Shown: in pieces, positions 1-44,711 of the stretch
Layout: each line of letters starts with the position of its first letter
Numbering within the stretch: position 1 is the stretch's first letter
Virus record (IMG/VR): IMGVR_UViG_3300033571_024544
Location: 1 to 44,711 of that record
DNA length: 44,711 nt
Source: a virus
Direction: 5' to 3' (one strand)
Made by a program: the position numbers and the translations under genes
The notes under the pieces: model-generated
What the model saw: only the letters and a program-made list of their open reading frames with translations
Told to the model about the DNA's origin: nothing
Databases searched by the model: none

Positions 1-122
1 ATAGATTCAATTATTCTATCTTCTCTATCACGATGCCACATAAACTCACCAGAGTCAGTATCTTGTTTAAACTCTCTGATAAATACATTATCTGACATTA
101 CTTCTTCTTTAAATGGTAACAT
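1..122 (-). CDS. Cupin-like phage protein, N-terminal part only
   Basis: This gene runs off the left edge, so only about 40 residues are visible. It starts at an ATG that overlaps the stop codon of the upstream ART-like gene (TAATG), which indicates translational coupling. The visible part ends in a FMWHRDREDR-type stretch. From memory, a W-H-R-D-x-E-D-R signature occurs near the start of small RmlC-like cupin proteins common in phages, whose function is unknown. A second Met (MSDNV) lies eight residues in and could be the real start. No catalytic assignment is possible from this fragment. Confidence 0.5.
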   Translation of the reverse strand, partial: MLPFKEEVMSDNVFIREFKQDTDSGEFMWHRDREDRIIES

Positions 123-706
123 TATAAAATCTTATTAAATTTTTCAATCGAGGATTCATCAAATATTGCCACATTTTTAGAACCTCTTTCTGCAACCATA
201 AATCCATCATATCCTTTTGACTTTATTTGGTTGATAATTGGGTCACATTCTATTATTTGCCAAGAACCATTCTTTATTAGCCAAAGATAGTTATAAACAG
301 TTTGTGAAACATCTTCTAAATCAAATTCCTTTTCTGTATCATAATCAAATCCTTTAAATCCTTTACCTCTATTTGCTATAAATTTTTTACCATTTGTAGG
401 ATCTTCATATTTATCATCTATCATTTTTTGTAATATTGATTTAAGTTCTAACTCTTTCATTGTCTTTACTTGCATCGGATCACATATTTTTAGATTTGAC
501 TTTATTTTTATTTCCCAAACGGCTCCTTCTGGAAACTGTTCTCTTTCATCAAATCCTGCAAAGTTTTTTGCAAAGTCTAAATTACTTGTTAAAAATATAG
601 CACCTGCAAATCTTTTTCTCTTTGGTGGAAAATCTCCTTTTCTATTACCATGATATAGTTTTTCCTCTATAGATTCAAATATTTTATATTCTTTTAAGTA
701 TTTCAT
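122..706 (-). CDS. ADP-ribosyltransferase-like protein with N-terminal packaging-type peptide
   Basis: The protein has 194 residues. It opens with MKYLKEYKIFESIEE, one copy of the N-terminal signature shared by about ten proteins here. It then shows an ART-type beginning (LYHGN at about 17-21), a G-A-I-F-L-T-S stretch and FAKNFAG (about 35-50), resembling the 'YHGT...GiYfT...A..YA' pattern of ART folds. The C-terminal KGYDGFMV...NVAIFD segment is typical of ART domains in phage polyvalent proteins. These enzymes transfer ADP-ribose from NAD+ to a protein. T4 packages its ART (Alt) and injects it to modify host RNA polymerase, so a similar role is inferred. The target is unknown, and the catalytic Glu cannot be fixed by eye. 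The gene lies four bases downstream of the 365-residue gene and shares its promoter. Confidence 0.6.
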   Translation of the reverse strand: MKYLKEYKIFESIEEKLYHGNRKGDFPPKRKRFAGAIFLTSNLDFAKNFAGFDEREQFPEGAVWEIKIKSNLKICDPMQVKTMKELELKSILQKMIDDKYEDPTNGKKFIANRGKGFKGFDYDTEKEFDLEDVSQTVYNYLWLIKNGSWQIIECDPIINQIKSKGYDGFMVAERGSKNVAIFDESSIEKFNKIL

Positions 707-710
707 ATTT

Positions 711-1808
711 TTATGTTATTTTTAATGCATCAAGCTTTGGTTTTACTATCATATAGATACCCACAGATATTACCAATGTGTCTAATACATTTAGTATTGA
801 ACCAACATATGGTATTTTCATGACTGCTGCTTTTATACCTTTTGTAATATCTTCTCCATTAAATCCTACCATTTTCCAAACCTCATCCATCGATTTATCT
901 TGTATTGAGTTAGTTAGTTCATCAAAACCACTTGCCTTTGAGACAAAATCTTTAAATTTCTTTATACTGCCTAAAACTTTATAGAAAATGTATAACTCTA
1001 ATATTTGAAATAAAAAAAAGAAGGATTTTCCAAATCTACTCACAGATTCTGATTTACCTGTTGTCAACCAACCAAAAAATTTATCCATTAGTTGTGATAG
1101 CTTACTTATTCCTTGTTTCATTAAATCCTCAATTTTTGGAATCCAATTAAATGGTGGATAAGTCATTATTTTTTCACCTAGTCTTTGTAAAAATGATTTT
1201 TTCTCTTCCTCTCCATTATCCTCTAATAAAAAATTATCATCTAAATAAATAAGTCCTTCATTAGCTCCTAAGTTTAATACACCTGAAAATGTTTCTGATA
1301 ATCTAGTCACTAAATCTGTTATAATTTGACCTGATGCTATATATTTTAGTAACTCTGATATACTCGTTATATAAGATTTTAGTTTAATTAGTTTTTTATT
1401 TTCTATAAATTCGATTAGTGGTTCTATAAACCCGCTATCTTTTAACGCATGTTCTTTTATTTTCTGTTCCATTGATAAAAATTGTGTCTTAACATAATTA
1501 CCAATTTGTCCTGCTAGTGATTTTGCAAAATCTAATACGTCTTTTGCTTTTTTTGCTAAATCAACTAATAGTTCACCTGCCTTAGATTTTACTGCTAAAA
1601 CACCTCTCTTACCTTTATCTACTAAATCAGAAAACCAAGATTCATTTATCATACCATAGTTAGAATCTATTAGTATCTTCTCATTTATAGTTAAATGACT
1701 TTCATATAATGAATTGAATATCATAGAAAAGTTAGATATATCATTACTATCAATACCCTCTAATATATTTATTTCTGAAAAATTCTCGTATGTCTTTAAG
1801 TATCTCAT
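711..1808 (-). CDS. Predicted internal virion protein with C-terminal hydrophobic segments
   Basis: I do not recognise a family for this 365-residue protein. It starts with MRYLKTYENFSE, the shared N-terminal signature, followed by I-L-E, which matches the [IL]-x-E form cut by the T4 prohead protease. The middle is rich in amphipathic helices with many Lys and Leu. The C-terminal third has two strongly hydrophobic stretches (about 265-283 and 335-355) that could enter a membrane. An ATATATA element sits exactly 4 nt before the ATG. The gene is first in a minus-strand unit with the ART-like and cupin-like genes. A packaged, possibly membrane-active virion protein is an inference from the N-terminus and hydrophobicity only. 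Confidence 0.6.
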   Translation of the reverse strand: MRYLKTYENFSEINILEGIDSNDISNFSMIFNSLYESHLTINEKILIDSNYGMINESWFSDLVDKGKRGVLAVKSKAGELLVDLAKKAKDVLDFAKSLAGQIGNYVKTQFLSMEQKIKEHALKDSGFIEPLIEFIENKKLIKLKSYITSISELLKYIASGQIITDLVTRLSETFSGVLNLGANEGLIYLDDNFLLEDNGEEEKKSFLQRLGEKIMTYPPFNWIPKIEDLMKQGISKLSQLMDKFFGWLTTGKSESVSRFGKSFFFLFQILELYIFYKVLGSIKKFKDFVSKASGFDELTNSIQDKSMDEVWKMVGFNGEDITKGIKAAVMKIPYVGSILNVLDTLVISVGIYMIVKPKLDALKIT

Positions 1809-1849: not shown

Positions 1850-2812
1850 TTACCAATAACCAGGATATGTCTTACCTCCAAATAGATGTCCAAATTTGTT
1901 AATTCTGCACGCCCAGTAGCCTGCTTTAGTTTTATCTTTCTTAGTATCACACTTATGTCTGGCTGCAAATGATTTTCTTGCTTTAGGGTCACTTACTTTA
2001 GCAGTCAAACCACCATGAACATCACCAAATGAAATCTTTTTAACATTACCAGTTTTAGGATTTTTAACATAAACATGATATTTTTTTGTACCACCACGTC
2101 TAGGTTTATTCAACTCTACTTCTTTACCTTTGTATTCTGCTTCATTTACTTCTTCAATAGTTTCCATTGGTAAATCTAATGGAACTATTACTCCTTCATA
2201 TTCTGCAAATCGACCTATATCAGTTGATTCAAATAATTCAGTATCTAATTCAGATAATTCAATTTGATTTGCATCAAATAATTGTCTTGCTTCTTTAATT
2301 AGGTTAAAGTATTGATTAGATCCAGGTCTAAATACATTTTCTACAATAGGTTTATTATTATCAATATGATATTGTAGATTTTCTGATATTCTACCAGAAA
2401 ATGATTCAAATAGTTTTAAGTATTTCATAGTTTTTCTTTCTTGTATTTTTTTGTCTGCTTCTCTAATTGTAAACCAAGTTGGTACTTTATCCAAAATTTC
2501 TGATTTATCATAACCATACTTTTTATAATCTTCTGGACTTGTAATCTTATAATCATCATTAGGATTTTTAGTAAATTGTTTGATTGTAAAATCAATAATC
2601 TTACCATTGATAATAGGTGCTGTATGTGATTCTTCATCAGAATCAAAATATACTACCTTAACAGGTAATTTATTTTCTTTAGCCCAGTCACAAAAAACAT
2701 TTGTAAACCAAGAACAATTGGCTTTTTCTTTATTAAATGGTTTACCTAATCTTAAATCATACTTTTTAGAATAATCACTAATAAAATCATCTACATGTTT
2801 TTTAATGTTCAT
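1850..2812 (-). CDS. Composite protein: Cys-His-Asp peptidase-like domain, internal packaging-type peptide, basic C-terminal domain
   Basis: The 320-residue reading frame has three parts. Residues 30-75 hold ANCSWF (Cys33), a His near 63 and IIDFT (Asp74), in the order of a papain/transglutaminase-like triad. Residue 129 is a Met opening MKYLKLFESFSG, the signature that stands at the very N-terminus of other proteins here. The C-terminal 75 residues are basic and Cys/His/Trp-bearing (FGD...ARHKCD...GYWACR), a pattern I recall from virion-associated proteins of many large phages. The gene may be a fusion of two genes, or may also be translated from the internal ATG at 2428, giving a 192-residue product. 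A TTAATATATA element lies about 30 nt upstream. Confidence 0.6.
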   Translation of the reverse strand: MNIKKHVDDFISDYSKKYDLRLGKPFNKEKANCSWFTNVFCDWAKENKLPVKVVYFDSDEESHTAPIINGKIIDFTIKQFTKNPNDDYKITSPEDYKKYGYDKSEILDKVPTWFTIREADKKIQERKTMKYLKLFESFSGRISENLQYHIDNNKPIVENVFRPGSNQYFNLIKEARQLFDANQIELSELDTELFESTDIGRFAEYEGVIVPLDLPMETIEEVNEAEYKGKEVELNKPRRGGTKKYHVYVKNPKTGNVKKISFGDVHGGLTAKVSDPKARKSFAARHKCDTKKDKTKAGYWACRINKFGHLFGGKTYPGYW

Positions 2813-18289: not shown

Positions 18290-18301
18290 TTTAATATATA
18301 G
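18290..18301 (+). promoter_or_regulatory. Late-type promoter candidate for the 178-residue gene, 4-nt spacing
   Basis: TTTAATATATAG followed by TTT and ATG at 18305. Confidence 0.5.
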
Positions 18302-26131: not shown

Positions 26132-26143
26132 TTTAATATATAC
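26132..26143 (+). promoter_or_regulatory. Late-type promoter candidate for the effector run
   Basis: TTTAATATATAC lies 27 nt before the ATG at 26171. It supports that start over the one at 26099 and would drive the LRR, zinc-knuckle, isochorismatase-like and SET genes. Confidence 0.55.
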
Positions 26144-26170: not shown

Positions 26171-27868
26171 ATGAAATGGATTAGAAATAGAAACAAATTC
26201 CTTAATGAAGCAAAATTAAGAGATGTTATATTCCCTACACAAGCTAAAGAAGTTGCTTCTAGATGGGGTGAAAAGTATTTAGACTATGAAGAGATAGAAC
26301 CTACAAGTAGTATAGAACAAGGAAGGTGGAAATTAGACTATGAGGATAAAATGGCAGTATTTTCAGCTTTTATGGATTGTGATATGGATGAAATAATTGA
26401 ATTATTTGATAATTTACCACAAGCTTTTGTTAATTTTATTTCTGAGGTAGCATCAGATAACATAAAAGGAATTGATATAAATAAACCTACTTTAGACCAG
26501 TTGGTATTTATTTTTAATCCTGTATTTAGAAAAATATCTGTTAATGATACATTAGCAAATAATATGATTTCTAAAGATGAGAATGGCAGACCTATAAAAG
26601 ATTCTGATGGAAATATGATTAGAGTTGAGAAAGTATCAGGTGAATTAGTTTTAACAAATAACTTAGTTAATATTAATACTATTCTTGATGATTATAATTC
26701 AATGGTTAATAAATATGTAAATGGTAATTTAGGTGACAAGTATAAAAATTCTGATATATTGAATGATGATTTGTTCTATAATAATGACTTACAAAAATAT
26801 GTAAGTGCTGCAAAAGATGATTCAAATTATGATTATGATTGGAAATATGATGTTGAAATTTTTGAAAAAGATATTTATTTATCTATTAAACATAATCCAA
26901 TGGATATATTAAATATGTCTATATCTAAATTCTACTCATCTTGTCAACATTTATATACTGGTGGTCATAGAAGTCAATTACTGGCAAATGTGTTTGATCC
27001 TAATAGTATTCCTGCATTTTTAATTTTTGATTCACCTATTTATAATAAAGAAAATCAAAAAATATCTGATGTAATGCCATTATCAAGAATGCAATTGAGA
27101 AAGATTGAAACTATGGATGAGAATAAGAATGTTAAAATATATTTTGATAGAGCTTATCCTGATAGAATGCAAAATATTTTCCCAGAAATTGTTGAGAAAT
27201 ATACATCAAATAAAGAAGCTGAAACTACAAGTGGTTATAATTATATTTATGCACCAGATATTGATTCAGGTGATGAGAATACATTAGAAAGACCATATCA
27301 TGATAGAATTGAAGGTAGAATTATAAATAAAAAGAGAATAGGTTCTAATATTAGAAGTCTTGACCTTTCTGCTATACATGATTGGAGTAATTTTATTATA
27401 TCACCAAATAATAATCTTAAAGAATTAGTTATTGAAACTACTCAACTACCTGAAAATCTATTAGATCTTAAACTAGAACTTGAATGGGTTAAGTTTAAAT
27501 ATTTGAAGTTAAATACATTAGAACCATTTTCTAAAATATCATATTCTGCTATAGCTTTTGAAAAATGTAAATTTGATAATAAGATATTTACAGATATTTT
27601 AAAGAATACTCCAGATGTTAAAAAGATAAAACTTATAAGTTGTGATAATGCAACAACTCCTAATTTTTCTAAATTCAAAAATTTAGAAGAGTTACACTTT
27701 ATTTATACATTAGATACTATTAAACAATTAGAAAGAGCAATTAGAGGTGTTGAAAGTCTTAAAAGACTTGGAGTATCTGGTGATTTATTAACAAAAGAAA
27801 CAAAACCATTTTTTGATTCATTAAAATCAAAAGGTGTAAAAATAGAAGTAACAGGACCATCTATATAA
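26171..27868 (+). CDS. Leucine-rich-repeat protein with packaging-type N-terminus
   Basis: I start this gene at 26171 (MKWIRNRNKFLNEAK, 565 residues). The longer frame from 26099 would begin upstream of a TTTAATATATAC element at 26132-26143, and the shorter start fits the shared N-terminal signature, including an L-N-E tripeptide. Residues about 60-380 are a helical domain with no recognised family. Residues about 400-545 contain leucine-rich-repeat-like units (SLDLSAI, LKELVIETTQLPENLLDL, VKKIKLISCDN, LEELHFIYTLD). LRRs usually bind proteins. It is the first gene of a four-gene run whose members all carry the signature. Injection into the host is inferred, not shown. Confidence 0.6.
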   Translation: MKWIRNRNKFLNEAKLRDVIFPTQAKEVASRWGEKYLDYEEIEPTSSIEQGRWKLDYEDKMAVFSAFMDCDMDEIIELFDNLPQAFVNFISEVASDNIKGIDINKPTLDQLVFIFNPVFRKISVNDTLANNMISKDENGRPIKDSDGNMIRVEKVSGELVLTNNLVNINTILDDYNSMVNKYVNGNLGDKYKNSDILNDDLFYNNDLQKYVSAAKDDSNYDYDWKYDVEIFEKDIYLSIKHNPMDILNMSISKFYSSCQHLYTGGHRSQLLANVFDPNSIPAFLIFDSPIYNKENQKISDVMPLSRMQLRKIETMDENKNVKIYFDRAYPDRMQNIFPEIVEKYTSNKEAETTSGYNYIYAPDIDSGDENTLERPYHDRIEGRIINKKRIGSNIRSLDLSAIHDWSNFIISPNNNLKELVIETTQLPENLLDLKLELEWVKFKYLKLNTLEPFSKISYSAIAFEKCKFDNKIFTDILKNTPDVKKIKLISCDNATTPNFSKFKNLEELHFIYTLDTIKQLERAIRGVESLKRLGVSGDLLTKETKPFFDSLKSKGVKIEVTGPSI

Positions 27869-29277
27869 TGAAAGAATTAAAATATATACAACTTTTTGAA
27901 GCATTTGAATCTAGTAAACTATCTAAGACATTAAAGTTTATTAATAAACAATATAGAAGTAGATTTTTACAAGATATAAAATCATTGTGTAATTCAAAAA
28001 ACTTCCCATTATCTGAGATAAGTGATGATTTGTTTGAATATCTTCCTTATAGAAAGGCACTTTCACTTCATAAAGATCCTGTTCAGAAAAAATGTAGTGC
28101 AACTTCTGAAAGTGAATTTAGTTCTGGTGTGGCAATACCTGGTGAAAAGTGTGAAGAAGGTAAACTAAAAAGAAGTTGGGGTGCTGGTAGAGTTAGAGTT
28201 ATGACTTGTCCTAATTGTAATGGCACAGGAATTGAACCATTCAGAGAAAATTGGAAATATCTTAAATTTTGGTTTAGTGCTGATAAAAAGTATGTTGCAA
28301 AAACTGCAACAAATGGTGTCATTTATGGTGATGGTACAAGTCCATATAGATATGATAGAAATGTTGGTATAAGTTATGGTTCAATTGGTGCATCAGGATG
28401 GTATTGGAGTGAAGAAGTTCTTAAAAAGTCATTGAAAGAAGCCAATTTTGCATTAGTACTTGATTTAGATAAATTAGAAAAGAAATCTAAAAAAGTAAAA
28501 AATACAAAAATAACACAAGATAATAGAGAGAAAAGTAGAGAAAATGCACTTGCACTACAAAGTAATCAAGATATTAAAGACCAAAACATTAGAAGATATT
28601 TTGATGCTCTTATAGAAAAAAGTAAACTTAAAGGTAACTTAGATGATATTAAAAACTTACATAAATTAGTTTCAAGATTTATGTGTGGTAATTATCCATT
28701 ATTTGCATTACATCCTTCAAGTGATGTTGATTCTATGCGTAAGATAAATAGTATTGGTGAAGATATTTATGGTATTATGGTTTCTTTACAAAAAGATAAT
28801 AGTCAAGGAAACCAAAACTCACTAATAACTAAAATACACAATGTAAATGGTAATATTAAATCATATCTTAATGGTTTGAAAGAATATAAAATTAGAATTA
28901 AGAAAAGTTTAGAACTAACTAAATCATATCTTAATTCTCAGTCAGAAAGAACAAAAGATTATAGATCTGTTAAATTATTTAATAATATTATGGAGATAAA
29001 TAATCTTATTTATAAGTATGTATCTAATTATAAAGTTGAGACTTTATATGATTATGAGTCACTATTAGCAGATTTGACAACAATTACTGAGTTATTTGAT
29101 CAAAAAAGATATTTATATGATGTTAGATATTTCTTTGAAAAAACTTCATCTAGATGGAGTTGGGATGATGCAAAAACTTATTTAACTGATAGACATCTTT
29201 ATGATAGAGAAATTGAATCTGGACTTGAAGGTAGTGAAAGATTTATACAATTCTTAAAAAATAAATATTCTTTATAA
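27868..29277 (+). CDS. Zinc-knuckle-containing protein with packaging-type N-terminus
   Basis: No family is recognised for this 469-residue protein. It opens MKELKYIQLFEAFESSK, a variant of the shared signature with an L-F-E tripeptide. Around 110-125 there is C-P-N-C-N-G-T-G, like half of a DnaJ-type zinc ribbon, and two earlier Cys (C72 and C91 area) could supply the other ligands. The segment after it (LKFWFSADKKYVAKTATNGVIYGDG) has an alternating pattern, and the C-terminal half is long charged helices (about 215-469). The start overlaps the previous stop by one base (TAATG), so the two are coupled. Its place among packaged-type proteins suggests a virion-borne effector. Confidence 0.55.
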   Translation: MKELKYIQLFEAFESSKLSKTLKFINKQYRSRFLQDIKSLCNSKNFPLSEISDDLFEYLPYRKALSLHKDPVQKKCSATSESEFSSGVAIPGEKCEEGKLKRSWGAGRVRVMTCPNCNGTGIEPFRENWKYLKFWFSADKKYVAKTATNGVIYGDGTSPYRYDRNVGISYGSIGASGWYWSEEVLKKSLKEANFALVLDLDKLEKKSKKVKNTKITQDNREKSRENALALQSNQDIKDQNIRRYFDALIEKSKLKGNLDDIKNLHKLVSRFMCGNYPLFALHPSSDVDSMRKINSIGEDIYGIMVSLQKDNSQGNQNSLITKIHNVNGNIKSYLNGLKEYKIRIKKSLELTKSYLNSQSERTKDYRSVKLFNNIMEINNLIYKYVSNYKVETLYDYESLLADLTTITELFDQKRYLYDVRYFFEKTSSRWSWDDAKTYLTDRHLYDREIESGLEGSERFIQFLKNKYSL

Positions 29278-29898
29278 ATGAGACATTTGAAAATATATGA
29301 AGATTTTAATAAAGGTAATGGAATCTTAATTATAGTTGATGTTCAAAAGTCTTTTAAGAAATTTTTTACAGATAATTACATAACTGCACTTAATAAGTAT
29401 TGTCAGAGTTTTAAGGATGTTTATCAAATATGGGATAATCATATTGATGGTAAGAATGTTGATAAAGATTATCTATATGATGAGAATCCAGATATTCCAG
29501 TTCATAATGACTTATATAGTTTCCCTAATCAAAGAGATATGATTGAAAAAAGATATAACTATGATGTTGATGCAGATTTTTATAAAAAGATATTAGATGA
29601 AAAGGTTTATAATGATATTAAACAAAAAGAAAAAAATCATCTATTAAATAGAGGTGATTTCTTTAAAACTACAGAAGATACCTATCTTATCTATATTGGT
29701 AACAATCATAAATGGTATCACTTACCTAAGAAGTTACAAGAGTTATTTACTAACTTAAAAGGTAAAGAGGTTGTAATGGTTGGTGGTTCTGACCAAGAGT
29801 GTTATTTAGATGTAGAAACTGCAGCAAAAACTTTTGGTGTTAAAATTAGAAGAGATAATAATTATATTTATTCTGCTACATTTTGTCCAATAAAATAA
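29278..29898 (+). CDS. Isochorismatase-like cysteine hydrolase with packaging-type N-terminus
   Basis: This 206-residue protein starts MRHLKIYEDFNK (shared signature with I-Y-E), followed directly by G-I-L-I-I-V-D-V-Q-K-S-F, the first strand and catalytic Asp of the isochorismatase/nicotinamidase family. Late in the protein, V-V-M-V-G-G-S-D-Q-E-C-Y (about 168-179) places the nucleophile Cys at the family position, followed by T-A-A-K-T-F-G. The catalytic Lys cannot be fixed by eye. Family members hydrolyse nicotinamide, isochorismate or N-carbamoyl compounds; the substrate is unknown. It abuts the previous stop (TAAATG) and lies 10 nt before the SET-domain gene. Confidence 0.7.
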   Translation: MRHLKIYEDFNKGNGILIIVDVQKSFKKFFTDNYITALNKYCQSFKDVYQIWDNHIDGKNVDKDYLYDENPDIPVHNDLYSFPNQRDMIEKRYNYDVDADFYKKILDEKVYNDIKQKEKNHLLNRGDFFKTTEDTYLIYIGNNHKWYHLPKKLQELFTNLKGKEVVMVGGSDQECYLDVETAAKTFGVKIRRDNNYIYSATFCPIK

Positions 29899-29908
29899 TA
29901 AAAAAGAT

Positions 29909-30358
29909 ATGAGATACTTAAAAACTTTTGAAAATTTTGATTTTGATAGAATTGATTCTGATGAATCAGATTATTTATATGTAGAAACTTCACAGATACC
30001 CAATTCTGGTAAAGGTTTATTTACTGCAATAGATATTGAAAAGGATGAAGTTATTTCAGTATTTAAAGGAGAAATACTTTCAGATGAAGAGATAAAATTA
30101 AGAACTGAATCAGGGAATGATGATTATTTTATGAATCTACCAAATGGTGACATATTAGATTGTAAACAAACTGATTGTTTTGCTAAATATGCTAATGATG
30201 CTGAAGGTTCTGATACAGGATTTAAAAATAATTGTATCATTTCAATGGAAGAAGATGATGTTGTTTTAGTTGCAACAAGAAATATAGAAGCAGGTGAGGA
30301 AATATTTGTTGAATATGGTGAAAACTATTGGCAAAATAATTCTTATAGACTTAGCTAA
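29909..30358 (+). CDS. SET-domain protein (lysine methyltransferase-like) with packaging-type N-terminus
   Basis: This 149-residue protein begins MRYLKTFENFDFD, the shared signature. It is followed by a compact SET domain: G-K-G-L-F-T-A (about 33-39), V-I-S-V-F-K-G-E, then F-A-K-Y-A-N-D-A and N-N-C-I at the site of the R-x-x-N-H-S knot. It ends with G-E-E-I-F-V-E-Y-G-E-N-Y-W, equal to the E-L-[TF]-x-D-Y motif. SET enzymes methylate protein lysines with S-adenosylmethionine. The size is like the viral vSET enzyme (about 119 residues). The canonical NHS is altered to ANDA, so activity is likely but not certain. It is the last gene of the run and converges on gp25 with an 8-nt overlap. Confidence 0.75.
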   Translation: MRYLKTFENFDFDRIDSDESDYLYVETSQIPNSGKGLFTAIDIEKDEVISVFKGEILSDEEIKLRTESGNDDYFMNLPNGDILDCKQTDCFAKYANDAEGSDTGFKNNCIISMEEDDVVLVATRNIEAGEEIFVEYGENYWQNNSYRLS

Positions 30359-30762: not shown

Positions 30763-31683
30763 ATGAAATATATGAAAACATATGAGTTTTTCTCATCAGG
30801 ATTTGGTAGTTCATCTTCACCAAGATTTTCAAGTTTAGGTAGTTTTATTACTTGGGCTGACAAAAGATATAGAGAAGAAGAATATGATGATGAAGAATTT
30901 GAGGAAATTATCTCTATATTAGAGAATGAGTGTAAACAATTTCTTGATGAGGTAAAAGAAGGTAAAGTAGGTCCTATTTTTAGAGGTGCAAAAAATATTG
31001 ATGATACTTATACTAAAGGTCTTGGAGTTAAAGGTTCTAGAATTGATAGAGCACCTCTTGATACTAGAAGAGATGTATCAAAGATTTTAGATAATTGTTT
31101 TGAGGAAAAATTTGGAGTTAAACTAAGAAGTAGTGGAGTTTTTGCTTCTAAACTACCAACTGTTGCAAGTGATTATGGTAGACCTTATTTATTTTTCCCA
31201 ATTGGTGATTATGAATATTTTTGGAATCCAGATGTAAAAGATTTATATGGTGATATTGAAGGAACACATTGGTATTACATTGATGAAAGTGATTGGGAAT
31301 GGCAATATGGTCCAGGAAATAATGGTGATTGGTGTTATGATGGACTTGAGTATGATAATGATATTATAACTGCAGTTAAAAGAGTTAAAGAAGATAATAC
31401 TGACTTATCAAATAAGTCATTTGAATATGTTCAAAAACTTTTAGATTGGGAACCTGCATGTAGTATTGAAGACTATATGCAAGGAGCACAAGCAGAATTA
31501 CAAAATAATTTAGAAGATATAGTAAGTGGATATGTTAATAATCAAATGGATAAGATAGTTGACCAAGAAATAACATTTGTTTGTGATAAATACTATTTAG
31601 TTGATCCTGCTTTTTATGTCAAATATTTAGAATACTTAAATGATAAGAATTTAGATGAATATAAAAAAAATAACCCAGATTAA
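30763..31683 (+). CDS. Second ADP-ribosyltransferase-like protein with packaging-type N-terminus
   Basis: This 306-residue protein begins MKYMKTYEFFSSG (shared signature). It then has P-I-F-R-G-A-K (about 69-75), R-S-S-G-V-F-A-S (about 121-128), A-S-D-Y-G-R-P-Y-L-F-F-P-I-G and F-W-N-P-D-V-K-D-L-Y. This order (R-G, then [RS]-S-x-G-V-F-A, A-x-x-Y-G, F-P-I-G) is one I know from ART-like proteins of large phages. The first Arg and the S-x-G strand match an ART NAD-binding core, but the catalytic Glu is uncertain. The C-terminal 80 residues are an acidic helix. It has its own TTTTATATATAC element 5 nt before the ATG and ends in a bidirectional terminator shared with the clamp loader gene. Confidence 0.6.
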   Translation: MKYMKTYEFFSSGFGSSSSPRFSSLGSFITWADKRYREEEYDDEEFEEIISILENECKQFLDEVKEGKVGPIFRGAKNIDDTYTKGLGVKGSRIDRAPLDTRRDVSKILDNCFEEKFGVKLRSSGVFASKLPTVASDYGRPYLFFPIGDYEYFWNPDVKDLYGDIEGTHWYYIDESDWEWQYGPGNNGDWCYDGLEYDNDIITAVKRVKEDNTDLSNKSFEYVQKLLDWEPACSIEDYMQGAQAELQNNLEDIVSGYVNNQMDKIVDQEITFVCDKYYLVDPAFYVKYLEYLNDKNLDEYKKNNPD

Positions 31684-32693: not shown

Positions 32694-32707
32694 TTTTTAA
32701 TATATAC
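32694..32707 (+). promoter_or_regulatory. Late-type promoter candidate for gp15-like gene
   Basis: TTTTTAATATATAC is one of the fullest matches, 5 nt between ATATATA and the ATG at 32712. Confidence 0.6.
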
Positions 32708-35219: not shown

Positions 35220-35873
35220 ATGTATTCATTATATGTTTTAAAAGATCCAAATACTTTAATAATTAGATATGTAGGTTATTCAAATAGTCCTAAAAGAAGA
35301 TTATGGGAGCATATAAGAGATGCTAAAAAGGGTGTTAAAACACATAAATCATACTGGATAAAATCATTAATTGACAATCAGCAATCTCCATTAATTGAGA
35401 TTTTATATAATTGTGATAATCATGATGATATATTACACAAAGAGATTGAACTTATAAAAGAACTTAAAGATAATGGTATTTTATTAACTAATTTAACTGA
35501 TGGTGGTGATGGTCAAAGAGGTAAAAAATTAGATAGAAATCATCCAATTATAAATTACAATCTTGGTAAAAAGATGTCAGATGAAACTAAGATAAAACTA
35601 TCAGAATCTAGAAAGGGTATAGTCTTTACTGATGAACATAAAAATAAATTATCAATTAAAAAAACTGGATATAAAAGGAGCTTAGATTCAATAGAGAAAC
35701 AATCATTAACCAAATCTTGTAAAATAAAAGTTCTATATAATGATGAAGTTTTCATATTTTCTAAAAAATCAGAAGCTGTTAAATTTACTGGGGTTAACTC
35801 AAACCAAATAGATAAATTAATAGAAAAAGAAGAAAAATCTAAAAAAGGTTACTTTTTTATTAAACTTTATTAA
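35220..35873 (+). CDS. GIY-YIG homing endonuclease with NUMOD3 modules
   Basis: This 217-residue protein has a GIY-YIG domain: S-L-Y-V-L (3-7), Y-V-G-Y-S-N-S-P-K-R-R-L (19-30) with the catalytic Arg, and a Glu near 81 in the I-E-L-I-K-E-L helix. Two NUMOD3-type DNA-binding segments follow (G-K-K-M-S-D-E-T-K-I-K-L and E-H-K-N-K-L-S). A C-terminal part may be a small HTH. It resembles free-standing Seg-type endonucleases of T4, which cut intron-free or variant alleles to spread. It sits between a small gene and the late sigma gene, with its own ATATATA element 4 nt before the ATG and a terminator upstream. Confidence 0.9.
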   Translation: MYSLYVLKDPNTLIIRYVGYSNSPKRRLWEHIRDAKKGVKTHKSYWIKSLIDNQQSPLIEILYNCDNHDDILHKEIELIKELKDNGILLTNLTDGGDGQRGKKLDRNHPIINYNLGKKMSDETKIKLSESRKGIVFTDEHKNKLSIKKTGYKRSLDSIEKQSLTKSCKIKVLYNDEVFIFSKKSEAVKFTGVNSNQIDKLIEKEEKSKKGYFFIKLY

Positions 35874-38100: not shown

Positions 38101-38238
38101 ATGAAGGCAAAAGATGTAATGTTAAAGTATAGTATAACAAGAAGAACCCTAAGTAATTGGGTTAAGAAAGGTATAATTGAAGTAGAACTTACTCCAACAG
38201 GTAGATATATTTATATTGAAAAAAAGAAAGAAATATAA
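38101..38238 (+). CDS. MerR/excisionase-like helix-turn-helix protein (45 residues)
   Basis: The short protein reads MKAKDVMLKYSITRRTLSNWVKKG and ends in GRYIYIEKKKEI. The order of a helix, R-R-T-L-x-x-W, G-x-I and a final beta hairpin with a G-R-Y-I-Y is that of a small MerR/IS607-type DNA-binding domain. It ends in TAATG shared with the HNH gene, so both are translated together. ATATATAC with 4 nt spacing stands before its ATG. It probably gives DNA binding to the mobile module or represses it. No catalytic domain is attached. Confidence 0.6.
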   Translation: MKAKDVMLKYSITRRTLSNWVKKGIIEVELTPTGRYIYIEKKKEI

Positions 38239-38930
38239 TGAAAAGTTGTAGTAAATGTAAAATTGAAAAAGAATTTATTCATTTTCATAAATGTTCAAAG
38301 AATAAGATTGGATATAGGTCACAATGTATTTCTTGTGGAAATGAATATAAAATTCTAAATAAAGATAAACAAAAAGAATATTTTAAAAATAGAAATAATT
38401 CAAAAAAAGAAGAATTAAAAGTAAAAGCATCAGAGTATTATTTGATAAATAAAGAAAGAATTATATCAAAAACTAAAGAATACTATGACAATAATAAAGA
38501 ATCTAAATTAGAGTATCAAAAAGAGTATCAAAAAAACAATAAAGATAAAAGAAATTCTTACCTAATTGAAAGAAGACAAAATGATCCTTTATTTAAGCTA
38601 ATAACAAATGTTAGAAATTTAATATATAATTCATTCTATTATAATGGATATTCTAAAAATTCAAAGACAGAAGAACTATTAGGTTGTTCTTTTGAAGAAC
38701 TAAAGCAACATTTAGAATCTAAATTTGAACCTTGGATGACTTGGGATAATAGAGGATTATATAATGGTGAATTAAACTATGGTTGGGATATTGACCATGT
38801 TATACCATTATCAAGTGTAAATGAAGAAATTGATATAATAAAATTAAATCATTATACAAATTTACAACCACTCTGTAGTAAAGTAAACAGAGATATAAAG
38901 AAAGATAATTTAGAATATGGCGTCATATAA
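38238..38930 (+). CDS. HNH homing endonuclease
   Basis: The C-terminal part of this 230-residue protein has G-W-D-I-D-H-V-I-P-L-S (about 180-190) and N-L-Q-P-L-C-S-K-V-N (about 205-215), the core of HNH nucleases of the mobile homing type. The N-terminus has two Cys pairs (C-S-K-C at 4-7 and C-I-S-C at 30-33) that likely bind zinc. A long Lys/Asn-rich helix links both. The last 14 bases overlap the portal start. It belongs with the small HTH gene upstream, and the pair looks like a mobile insertion between the virion genes. Confidence 0.85.
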   Translation: MKSCSKCKIEKEFIHFHKCSKNKIGYRSQCISCGNEYKILNKDKQKEYFKNRNNSKKEELKVKASEYYLINKERIISKTKEYYDNNKESKLEYQKEYQKNNKDKRNSYLIERRQNDPLFKLITNVRNLIYNSFYYNGYSKNSKTEELLGCSFEELKQHLESKFEPWMTWDNRGLYNGELNYGWDIDHVIPLSSVNEEIDIIKLNHYTNLQPLCSKVNRDIKKDNLEYGVI

Positions 38931-40671
38931 CAATTTTGACACAAATAGTAACACTGCAAACTTTGGAGCTGCTGGACAATCTGCAGTAGAAAACAAAGGA
39001 CTATTTAATAGGATATTAAGGACTTTATCATCTTATGGTATGAACTATGATGATATGATTATTAGAAATCAAGTAGGTATTGGAATTAATGAAGATCCAT
39101 ATGCTGCTCGTGGAAATTCGATGTATGATTTCTTCTCCCAAAGGGCTGTAGCATCTGTATTAAACAGAAAATCAATACCTTATCTAGACAAAGCTTATGC
39201 AGATAAAAGAAGAATTTTAAGAGAGTATTCTATTAAAGATGAGATTAGAGACTTTGTGAGTTCAATTGCTGATGAGTGTATAGTTTATAATGATGAGAGA
39301 GATTTCTGTTCACCAGTGGCTTTACCAGTAGAATATTCAACAGAGATACAAGATAAGTATCAAGAGTACTTTGAATCAATTTATAACAAGTTTGGTTTCT
39401 CTGATAACATTACTGCATGGAATATGATGAAAGACTTTTTAGTTGATGGTTATGTTGCACTTGAGATTATATTTGATGATAAAAAGAAAAATATTATTAG
39501 TTTCAATAGATTAAGACCAGAGACTTTAGTTCCTGCATATGAACCAGCAATTGGTCATTTATGGATTCAGTTTCCTGAGGATCCACAATTAAGAAGAATA
39601 TTTTTAGATTCACAGATAGTTTATGTTTCTTATTCAACTCAAAATGAATTTTCAGAGACATCTTATGTAGAGGGTTTGATTAAGCCTTATAATCAATTAA
39701 AAATATTACAACAAACAAGAATAATGTTTAACATTATTAATGCAACTATTTATCAAAAGTTTACTATTCCAATCAAAGGTATGTCAAGACAAAGAGCAGA
39801 AGAGCAAATAGGTCAATTAATACATGATTATTCAGAAGAAGTAGAATGGGATGATTCATTGGGAACTTTAACAATTAATGGTTCTAAACACTTACCTTAT
39901 AACAAACAGATTTGGTTTCCTGAGGGAGATGGTGGGACACCTAATATGGAATTAGTTTCTCCACAAGGTCATAACTTAAATGATGACACAATGTTAGATT
40001 GGTTTTTCAAGGCACTAAAAAGGGCATCTAAAATACCAATGTCAAGATTTGAAGGTGATAATGGTGGTGGTAACTTAGTTACTGATGCAGCTGAGATGAC
40101 AAGAGATGAGATTAAGTTTCACAACTTTGTAAATAGATTAAGATCTAACTTTAAAGAATTAATTGTTAAACCATTAAGACTACAGATGTTAATTGAATTT
40201 CCTGAATTAAAAGATGACCAGTTTTTTACAAATGCTATTGATGTTAATTTCTTTACCAATCAAGTATTTGAAGAATGGAAAAAGATAAACAATTTAGAAA
40301 AGAAAGCAGGTATAGTTGGTACTTTACTTGGTGTTATGAATGGTGAGAAACCATACTTTCACATTGAATGGATTATGGATAATGTATTCAAACTTACTCC
40401 AGAAGAAAAGGCAGAAAATGCTAAGTACTGGGCAATGGATGTTGCTAATCAAGCAGCTGCAGCAACTGGTGAACCTGGTGCTCCATCAGAAGGTGGTGGA
40501 GGTGGTGGCTTTGGTGGTTCTGGTGAAAGTGGTGAAATGCCTGGTGGTGGAGGTCAAGCAGCTCCACAAGCAGCACCTGAAGCTCCTGCACAAGGTGGAG
40601 GTCAAGCAGCACCTCAAGCAGCACCAGAAGCTCCTCCAGCACCAGAGGGTGGAGGTGAGTTTGAATTCTAA
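38917..40671 (+). CDS. 20: Portal vertex protein (gp20-like)
   Basis: This 584-residue protein fits T4 gp20 (524 residues), the dodecameric DNA channel of the head that also starts head assembly. Visible features include Y-A-A-R-G-N-S-M-Y-D-F (about 68-78), R-R-I-L-R-E-Y-S-I-K-D-E-I (about 105-117) and W-N-M-M-K-D-F-L-V-D-G-Y-V-A (about 168-181). The N-x-x-N-x-x-G-D-T-M-L-D-W-F-type part and the M-S-R-F-E-G-D region lie near 348-385. The C-terminal 70 residues are a low-complexity tail of Gly, Ala, Pro, Gln and Glu not present in T4. The ATG overlaps the HNH gene end, so translation is coupled. A terminator follows, shared with the convergent gene. Confidence 0.85.
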   Translation: MASYNNFDTNSNTANFGAAGQSAVENKGLFNRILRTLSSYGMNYDDMIIRNQVGIGINEDPYAARGNSMYDFFSQRAVASVLNRKSIPYLDKAYADKRRILREYSIKDEIRDFVSSIADECIVYNDERDFCSPVALPVEYSTEIQDKYQEYFESIYNKFGFSDNITAWNMMKDFLVDGYVALEIIFDDKKKNIISFNRLRPETLVPAYEPAIGHLWIQFPEDPQLRRIFLDSQIVYVSYSTQNEFSETSYVEGLIKPYNQLKILQQTRIMFNIINATIYQKFTIPIKGMSRQRAEEQIGQLIHDYSEEVEWDDSLGTLTINGSKHLPYNKQIWFPEGDGGTPNMELVSPQGHNLNDDTMLDWFFKALKRASKIPMSRFEGDNGGGNLVTDAAEMTRDEIKFHNFVNRLRSNFKELIVKPLRLQMLIEFPELKDDQFFTNAIDVNFFTNQVFEEWKKINNLEKKAGIVGTLLGVMNGEKPYFHIEWIMDNVFKLTPEEKAENAKYWAMDVANQAAAATGEPGAPSEGGGGGGFGGSGESGEMPGGGGQAAPQAAPEAPAQGGGQAAPQAAPEAPPAPEGGGEFEF

Positions 40672-43541: not shown

Positions 43542-44711
43542 ATGAAACCAGTTTTAATAGTAGAAAATTCAACAAATTCTCTTGTAAGAGAGAGTGCTTC
43601 TACAGGTAATAAGGATTTTTTCCTTAATGGTACTTTTACAGAGTTTGGTGTTAAAAATCGTAATGAAAGAATATACACTGCTGAGAAGTTCTTACCTGCA
43701 TTGGCAGAGTTGAATGAAAGAATGAGCAGCTTAGGTGCTGTTTTTGGTGAGTTTGATCACCCAGATGTTTTTGATACCTCATTGTCAAGAGCATCTCACA
43801 TCATCACCAAAGCTGAATATGTTTCTGAAAAGAACACAGTTGAAGGAGAAATCAAATTGTTAAGTACATATTGGGGAAAAGAAGCAAAGGCATTAGTTAA
43901 TGATGGATGTCCTGTTTTTGTATCTTCTAGAGCTGCAGGAATTACTGAATCTGATGGTTCAGTATCATTGAAAAAACTTTTTACTTATGACATTGTTGCT
44001 GATCCAGGATTTGCATCTGCAAAAATGAGTGTAAAAGTATTAAATGAATCTTTAGGTTACTGTACTGATGGACAAATTGAAAAAAATAACTTTAGGATAT
44101 ATGAGATGTCTGACGAGTCCAAAATGAACGAATTATTCAAAATGAACAACAATGACTTTGTAACAAAACAACAATTAACTGATTATTCAAACTATTTAGT
44201 TAATGAGATTGCTTCTACTAAGAAAGTAGTAAACAATGCAATTACAAAAGGTAATATGCCTGCTAAGAAATTAGAGCAATTACTTGAGTATTATGAAGAG
44301 TTAAATGGAACTAACTCACAAGTTGCTAAATATTTAGATTATTTAGCTGACAAAATTCAAGTAGTAGTTAATGAAAACAAATCATTAAAAGAAACTACTA
44401 CAAAATTGGCTAAACACAATGATTACTTAGCTGAGAACTTAGAAAAAGCTATTAATTATTCAGAATATTTAGCTGAAAACTTAGACAAAAACATTGAGTA
44501 TTCAGAGTATTTAGCTGAGAACTTAGATAAAAATATCAACTACTCAGAATATATTGCTGAAAACTTAGATAAAAACATTTCTTACTCAGAATATTTGGCT
44601 GAAAACTTAGACAAAAACATTGAGTATTCAGAATATTTAGCTGAAAACTTAGACAAGAATATTGCTTACTCTGAATACATTGCTGAAAACTTAGACAAAA
44701 ACATTGCTTAC
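43542..44711 (+). CDS. 21: Prohead protease (gp21-like, S77) fused to coiled-coil scaffold-like repeats, 3' end cut off
   Basis: The gene runs off the right edge; 390 residues are visible. Residues 1-170 hold an S77-type prohead protease with G-E-F-D-H-P-D (His73), V-F-V-S-S-R-A-A-G (Ser128/129) and Y-D-I-V-A-D-P-G-F (Asp150 or 154). After about 180 the protein is helical, then from residue 293 it repeats a 14-residue unit (S-E-Y-L-A-E-N-L-D-K-N-I-E-Y) seven times up to the edge. T4 gp21 has 212 residues and a separate scaffold (gp22); here the scaffold function may be built in. The protease should process packaged proteins, including those with the shared N-terminus. A TTATATATACC element is about 28 nt upstream. 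Confidence 0.9.
   Translation, partial: MKPVLIVENSTNSLVRESASTGNKDFFLNGTFTEFGVKNRNERIYTAEKFLPALAELNERMSSLGAVFGEFDHPDVFDTSLSRASHIITKAEYVSEKNTVEGEIKLLSTYWGKEAKALVNDGCPVFVSSRAAGITESDGSVSLKKLFTYDIVADPGFASAKMSVKVLNESLGYCTDGQIEKNNFRIYEMSDESKMNELFKMNNNDFVTKQQLTDYSNYLVNEIASTKKVVNNAITKGNMPAKKLEQLLEYYEELNGTNSQVAKYLDYLADKIQVVVNENKSLKETTTKLAKHNDYLAENLEKAINYSEYLAENLDKNIEYSEYLAENLDKNINYSEYIAENLDKNISYSEYLAENLDKNIEYSEYLAENLDKNIAYSEYIAENLDKNIAY
44418..44711 (+). repeat. 42-bp tandem repeats in the prohead protease gene
   Basis: Exactly seven units of 42 bp (14 codons) fill this stretch up to the window edge. The first unit (NDYLAENLEKAINY) is the most diverged. The unit is two heptads of a helix. Confidence 0.9.

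Follow-up and report, generated by a model that had tools for sequence, protein, structure and literature searches.

The 44,711-nucleotide stretch of viral DNA analysed here (IMG/VR record IMGVR_UViG_3300033571_024544, positions 1 to 44,711; the window) encodes a 149-residue SET-domain protein with a short N-terminal tag (29909-30358, + strand). On balance, we favor the reading that a huge phage of the Mahaphage type, T4-like and infecting Bacteroidota, packages this protein in its capsid and co-injects it as a protein lysine methyltransferase.

SET fold and active site

The open reading frame begins with ATG, and its product matches the Pfam SET profile (PF00856) with an E-value of 4.3e-13 and 50 bits, above the curated cutoff of 22.4; residues 34-137 (30008-30319, + strand), the core of the domain, align with the whole of the model (positions 1-105). 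Comparison with the PDB by phmmer gave matches to Legionella LegAS4 (1e-8) and KMT2D (2e-6). An AlphaFold (AF2) model made from seven close homologues alone had a pLDDT of 38.8, which rose to 72.5 (pTM 0.70) when diverse phage SETs were added to the alignment. The top Foldseek matches to this model were all SET enzymes, the best being MLL3 (8.6e-9, probability 1.00), while VIA-align returned a best Z of 12.4 and placed the chlorovirus enzyme vSET (3kma) at Z 11.1. As the AF2 alignment held other phage SETs, the independent evidence for the fold is the Pfam profile match. An earlier sequence-only reading had proposed a SET domain in a phage from the motifs G34-K-G-L-F38, Y94-A-N-D-A98, N107-N-C109 and E131-I-F-V-E-Y-G137, and had suggested a structure search against vSET; the frame and all of these motifs are present, the profile and structure searches agree in returning SET folds, and we regard the fold as virtually certain. 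A chance motif was dropped as the source of the match, since profile and fold are concordant, and a sequencing artefact or decaying gene was dropped because the gene is kept in 13 records, with dN/dS values across the SET orthologues of 0.06-0.26 (some dS being close to saturation), indicative of purifying selection.

Among 35 aligned phage SETs, G34, G36 and N96 are invariant, and Y136, the catalytic tyrosine of the E-I-F-V-E-Y-G motif (30314-30316, + strand), is nearly so. Orthologues of the window protein keep G34-x-G36, Y73, N96 and Y136; in those aligned, the histidine of the NHS motif is replaced by Asp97 with the asparagine retained (N96-D97; 30194-30199, + strand), whereas all other phage SETs in the alignment read NH. 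F52, which is also fixed across orthologues, stands where a tyrosine is usual in the first motif. LegAS4 reads NFS at the NHS position in the PDB alignment. In yeast Set1, the N1016A and Y1054A substitutions are null, making this asparagine and tyrosine essential, while H1017A keeps or raises activity, H1017L and H1017R are null, and Y967F leaves partial activity, chiefly monomethylation (PMC3585878). We infer that Y136 is the equivalent of Set1 Y1054. The activity of H1017A indicates that the window enzyme could stay active without the NHS histidine, and the alignment of F52 with the Y967F position makes a weak or monomethylating enzyme possible. The change from NHS to NDA together with F52 could lower or abolish activity; judged from its residues, the protein is fairly likely to be an active lysine methyltransferase.

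A packaged but catalytically dead SET would serve instead to bind peptides or proteins, for example in shielding a phage or blocking a host protein, and the injected inhibitor IPI* of T4 is a parallel for such a role. The NDA and F52 substitutions, both fixed across orthologues, speak for this explanation, and MLL5, in which a conserved SET fold has lost SAM binding, is a warning that dead SETs exist (PMC5094779); however, the window protein keeps the SAM-contacting asparagine and the catalytic tyrosine, each of which MLL5 has lost or changed, and this, with the activity of Set1 H1017A (PMC3585878), leads us to consider a dead enzyme unlikely.

A tag shared by otherwise unrelated proteins

The first ten residues, MRYLKTFENF (29909-29938, + strand), form the tag that we propose as a capsid-targeting sequence. 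MRYLKTFExF is identical in every aligned SET orthologue, residue 9 alone varying, and residues 1-20 of the SET model are disordered (pLDDT about 42), which fits a removable tag. A search with the tag written as degenerate DNA gave 5 matches in the window and 12 in LR756502, against 0 when the pattern was reversed; there were 8 matches in LR745206, 12 in LR756504, 8 in LR756500 and none in LR756501. In the stop-to-stop frames of LR756502, a protein regular expression found 32 matches, none of them more than 17 codons past the upstream stop, and crude removal of shadow ORFs left a tagged set of 30. The consensus of this set, M-K-x-[LI]-K-x-[FY]-E-x-F, has its information concentrated in residues 1-10, and past residue 12 the 30 proteins contain only 1 related pair. 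Family scans of these ORFs named the SET protein and a DNA-primase piece and nothing else; the primase piece is probably a false match (1 of 30), the expression being imperfect.

Of the ten residues in the T4 IPIII sequence, 4 and 7 matter most for targeting, and 8 and 10 for processing (PMC9026906). Compared by position with IPIII (letters from X04567, 100% match), the tag has L/I at 4 and F/Y at 7, compatible with the targeting residues. Set against the T4 cleavage motif, [IL]-x-E ahead of the cut, Glu8 is conserved, T or K frequently occupies position -3, and the SET protein, with T-F-E, shows no clean copy of the motif. In phage PAU, a distant relative, ten genes within about 8 kb (locus L118, 9681-17365) start with MK[TS][LI]..L(Y/F)E or a near match; they surround the portal, protease and scaffold genes and include the scaffold and two proteins annotated, by label only, as 'internal capsid protein'.

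The SET gene is the last of a four-gene run (26171-30358) in which all four N-termini are tag-like. The first gene (26171-27868, + strand), with its likely true start at ATG 26171, begins with the T4-like tag MKWIRNRNKFLNEA, and its homologues start MKWIKPRDLFLEAK / MKWIKNRNLFLEAK. The second (27868-29277, + strand), recognized as an ORF and by its spacing, has the tag-like N-terminus MKELKYIQLFEAFE, with homologue starts MRNLKHIKLFEAF / MKNLKYIKLFEAF. The third, which adjoins the SET gene, encodes a tagged 206-residue protein (MRHLKIYEDF...DVQKSF; 29278-29898, + strand) with no match in Pfam or the PDB and none significant in PHROG; an isochorismatase-like hydrolase, considered from its DVQ... 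and VGG..EC motifs, found no support in the Pfam and PDB searches. At all tagged-SET loci examined, the SET gene adjoins one for a tagged DVQ(K/R)SF protein of 204-206 residues, while gene order and wider surroundings vary. This protein is also common without a nearby SET (51 loci, with a tag match in about five-sixths), and the DVQ.SF family is widespread, with GG(S/A)D.EC motifs. Further tagged proteins are encoded at 30763-31683 (+ strand; MKYMKTYEFF, phrog_11975, of unknown function) and 711-1808 (- strand; MRYLKTYENF), and one with the tag-like N-terminus MKYLKEYKIFES at 122-706 (- strand). An ADP-ribosyltransferase-like identity for the products of 122-706 and 30763-31683 found no support in Pfam and PDB searches. 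Within the ORF at 1850-2812 (- strand), an in-frame tagged start at residue 129, MKYLKLFESF, opens a protein (1850-2428, - strand) with a phrog_7595 / HVA1-like C-terminus; the ORF is a fusion of two genes or else an upstream gene whose stop has been lost.

The four-gene run is preceded by TTTAATATATA (26132-26142, + strand), a putative late-type promoter element whose enrichment was measured in LR756502, where TT(A)ATATATA lies immediately 5' of the SET gene. In that genome it occurs within 35 nt upstream of 18 of 30 tagged ORFs and 107 of 694 untagged ORFs (odds ratio 8.2, P=8e-8) and, when first-of-unit genes only are counted, at 12/17 tagged against 90/396 untagged (odds ratio 8.2, P=6e-5). 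In LR756502 and at three places in the window (26132-26142, 32698-32706 and 18292-18300), TTAATATATA most often begins 14-18 nt 5' of the start codon, and a further group of positions lies at -28 to -35; as it ends just 4-5 nt before the ATG, the mRNAs may have little or no leader. TT(A)ATATATA resembles an AT-rich late promoter, a likeness that is a sequence correlation. TAnnTTTG-like sites, which we take to be the Bacteroidetes promoter type, are found upstream of ORF 22028 and of a thymidylate-synthase-like gene (23150); the late-type element differs from these and stands at structural genes.

The tag might serve as some other N-terminal address or interaction motif, with the SET protein working in the cytoplasm during infection. 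The untagged SETs of LR756504 and LR756501 indicate that packaging is not a requirement for a phage SET, and the capsid role of the tag is read from sequence; nevertheless, the match to the T4 capsid-targeting register at residues 4 and 7, the position of the PAU tags around head genes and the late-type element all count against this explanation, to which we assign a low probability. Packaging of the window SET in the virion is reasonably predicted from these comparisons and fairly probable.

Host phage and distribution of SET genes

A T4-type portal gene (gp20; 38917-40671, + strand; PF07230, 5e-59) ties the window to the Mahaphage group. Its product is 83%, 78%, 53% and 48% identical to the portals of LR745206, LR756502, LR756504 and LR756501, whose genomes measure 634, 642, 636 and 735 kb in the huge-phage study. 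Judged by portal identity, the window is part of a huge-phage genome of Mahaphage type; the Mahaphage clade holds the largest genomes of that study, and its predicted hosts are Bacteroidetes (PMC7162821). The gp21-like head maturation protease (43542-44711, + strand, open at the window end; phrog_207, 3e-32) is the enzyme expected to cut the tags. Near-identical EYLAENLDKN repeats follow the protease and run off the window, and may be a scaffold fused to it, an arrangement annotated in Tenacibaculum phage PTm1. By eye, the genes at 38238-38930 and 35220-35873 are HNH-like and GIY-YIG-like endonuclease genes among the head genes, one of the two standing immediately 5' of the portal.

The sequence-only reading had described a packaging-type N-terminus in a head-type context. 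The former proves real as a shared tag, invariant in orthologues and recurring on otherwise unrelated proteins. The latter holds for the portal and protease, 9-13 kb downstream, but not for the immediate neighbors, which are tagged proteins with no function assigned.

Orthologues of the window SET occur in 11 IMG/VR contigs (71-100% identity) and in LR756502 (64%). The whole LR745206 record has no SET gene; it does have homologues of both the DVQKSF gene and the window gene at 30351, separated by a different ORF. LR756500 likewise has no SET gene, and the two genomes without it identify SET as an accessory gene. LR756504 and LR756501 carry SET genes at other loci, untagged and with NHS intact. 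The untagged huge-phage SETs at L034 1450-1857 and L035 1453-1815 resemble the window SET only distantly and probably represent independent acquisitions. Among the GTDB contigs searched, no cellular relatives of the window SET with close patterns were found.

That two related huge phages do without the gene argues that head assembly does not need it, and since known packaged SET and ART enzymes modify host proteins (PMC7019647, PMC9026906), we think it improbable that the enzyme methylates, late in infection, the phage's own prohead proteins (scaffold, capsid or other cargo) and not host proteins, even though the late-type element and the targeting tag place it in the assembling head.

The sequence-only reading had considered a virion-borne SET enzyme new for a bacteriophage. 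SET genes in phages are numerous, and so not new as a kind: a query with one untagged phage SET returned 42 IMG/VR loci, BFVD contains several entries named 'SET domain-containing protein [uncultured Caudovirales phage]', some are listed in UniProt, and IMG/VR holds dozens. No paper on phage SET proteins was found in the literature searched, which covered few subscription journals, nor was a reported cargo list for Mahaphages. What is new here is an NDA-type SET with a putative capsid tag, belonging to a set of tagged genes in the largest known phages.

Predicted delivery and known parallels

From the SET fold, purifying selection, shared tag, linkage of tagged genes and late-type element, all observed, we predict packaging, tag removal, catalysis and a target as follows. 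The tagged SET enzyme would be made late in infection and drawn by its T4-type capsid-targeting tag into the prohead core, where the prohead protease would probably cut off the tag; stored beside the DNA in the head, the enzyme would be ejected into the next host and would methylate lysines of host proteins at the start of infection. Overall, this would be an enzyme like chlorovirus vSET delivered by the T4 Alt/internal-protein route. The chances of an early host-protein target are about even; RNA polymerase, nucleoid proteins and ribosomal proteins, which the sequence-only reading put forward, are conjectural candidates. We advance only tentatively the full scheme, in which the phage would inject a capsid-borne lysine methyltransferase, the bacterial counterpart of vSET, as one of about 30 tagged cargo proteins.

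The vSET protein of chlorovirus PBCV-1 is, like the window protein, a small stand-alone viral SET domain; it is encoded by the virus, packaged in the virion and acts early on the host (PMC7019647). It differs in belonging to a virus of a eukaryotic alga, in targeting histone H3K27 and in having no T4-type tag, while the window SET has a bacterial host and NDA for NHS, and would be a functional analogue known here from its sequence. The window phage shares with T4 and its internal proteins and Alt a short tag at the N-terminus of cargo proteins that are otherwise unrelated, a hydrophobic residue at 4 and an aromatic residue at 7, a T4-type portal and a prohead protease; T4, in contrast, has no SET enzyme and other tag letters, the window cleavage motif differs in form, and packaging in the window phage is predicted. 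Phage P1 packages the anti-restriction protein DarB in its capsid through an N-terminal signal and delivers it to the host (PMC9024508), a comparable case of head-packaged proteins in a large phage, with a different enzyme and an unrelated signal. LegAS4/RomA, the nearest solved sequence, also lacks the NHS histidine and is delivered into a host cell, but is secreted by a bacterium into eukaryotes, has extra domains and targets a histone. The untagged phage SETs (LR756501, LR756504 and IMG/VR) share the fold, and two belong to the huge-phage clade of the window, but they differ in lying at other loci, the absence of a tag, an NHS motif intact in nearly all and an identity of 16-30% to the window SET.

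Packaged enzymes let a phage act ahead of its own gene expression, and if the proposed delivery is correct, lysine methylation would join the modifications that injected proteins are known to make, among them the ADP-ribosylation carried out by T4 Alt. The tag provides a sequence handle for listing candidate injected Mahaphage proteins, and the tagged genes of PAU, an isolated phage, are candidates for such cargo.
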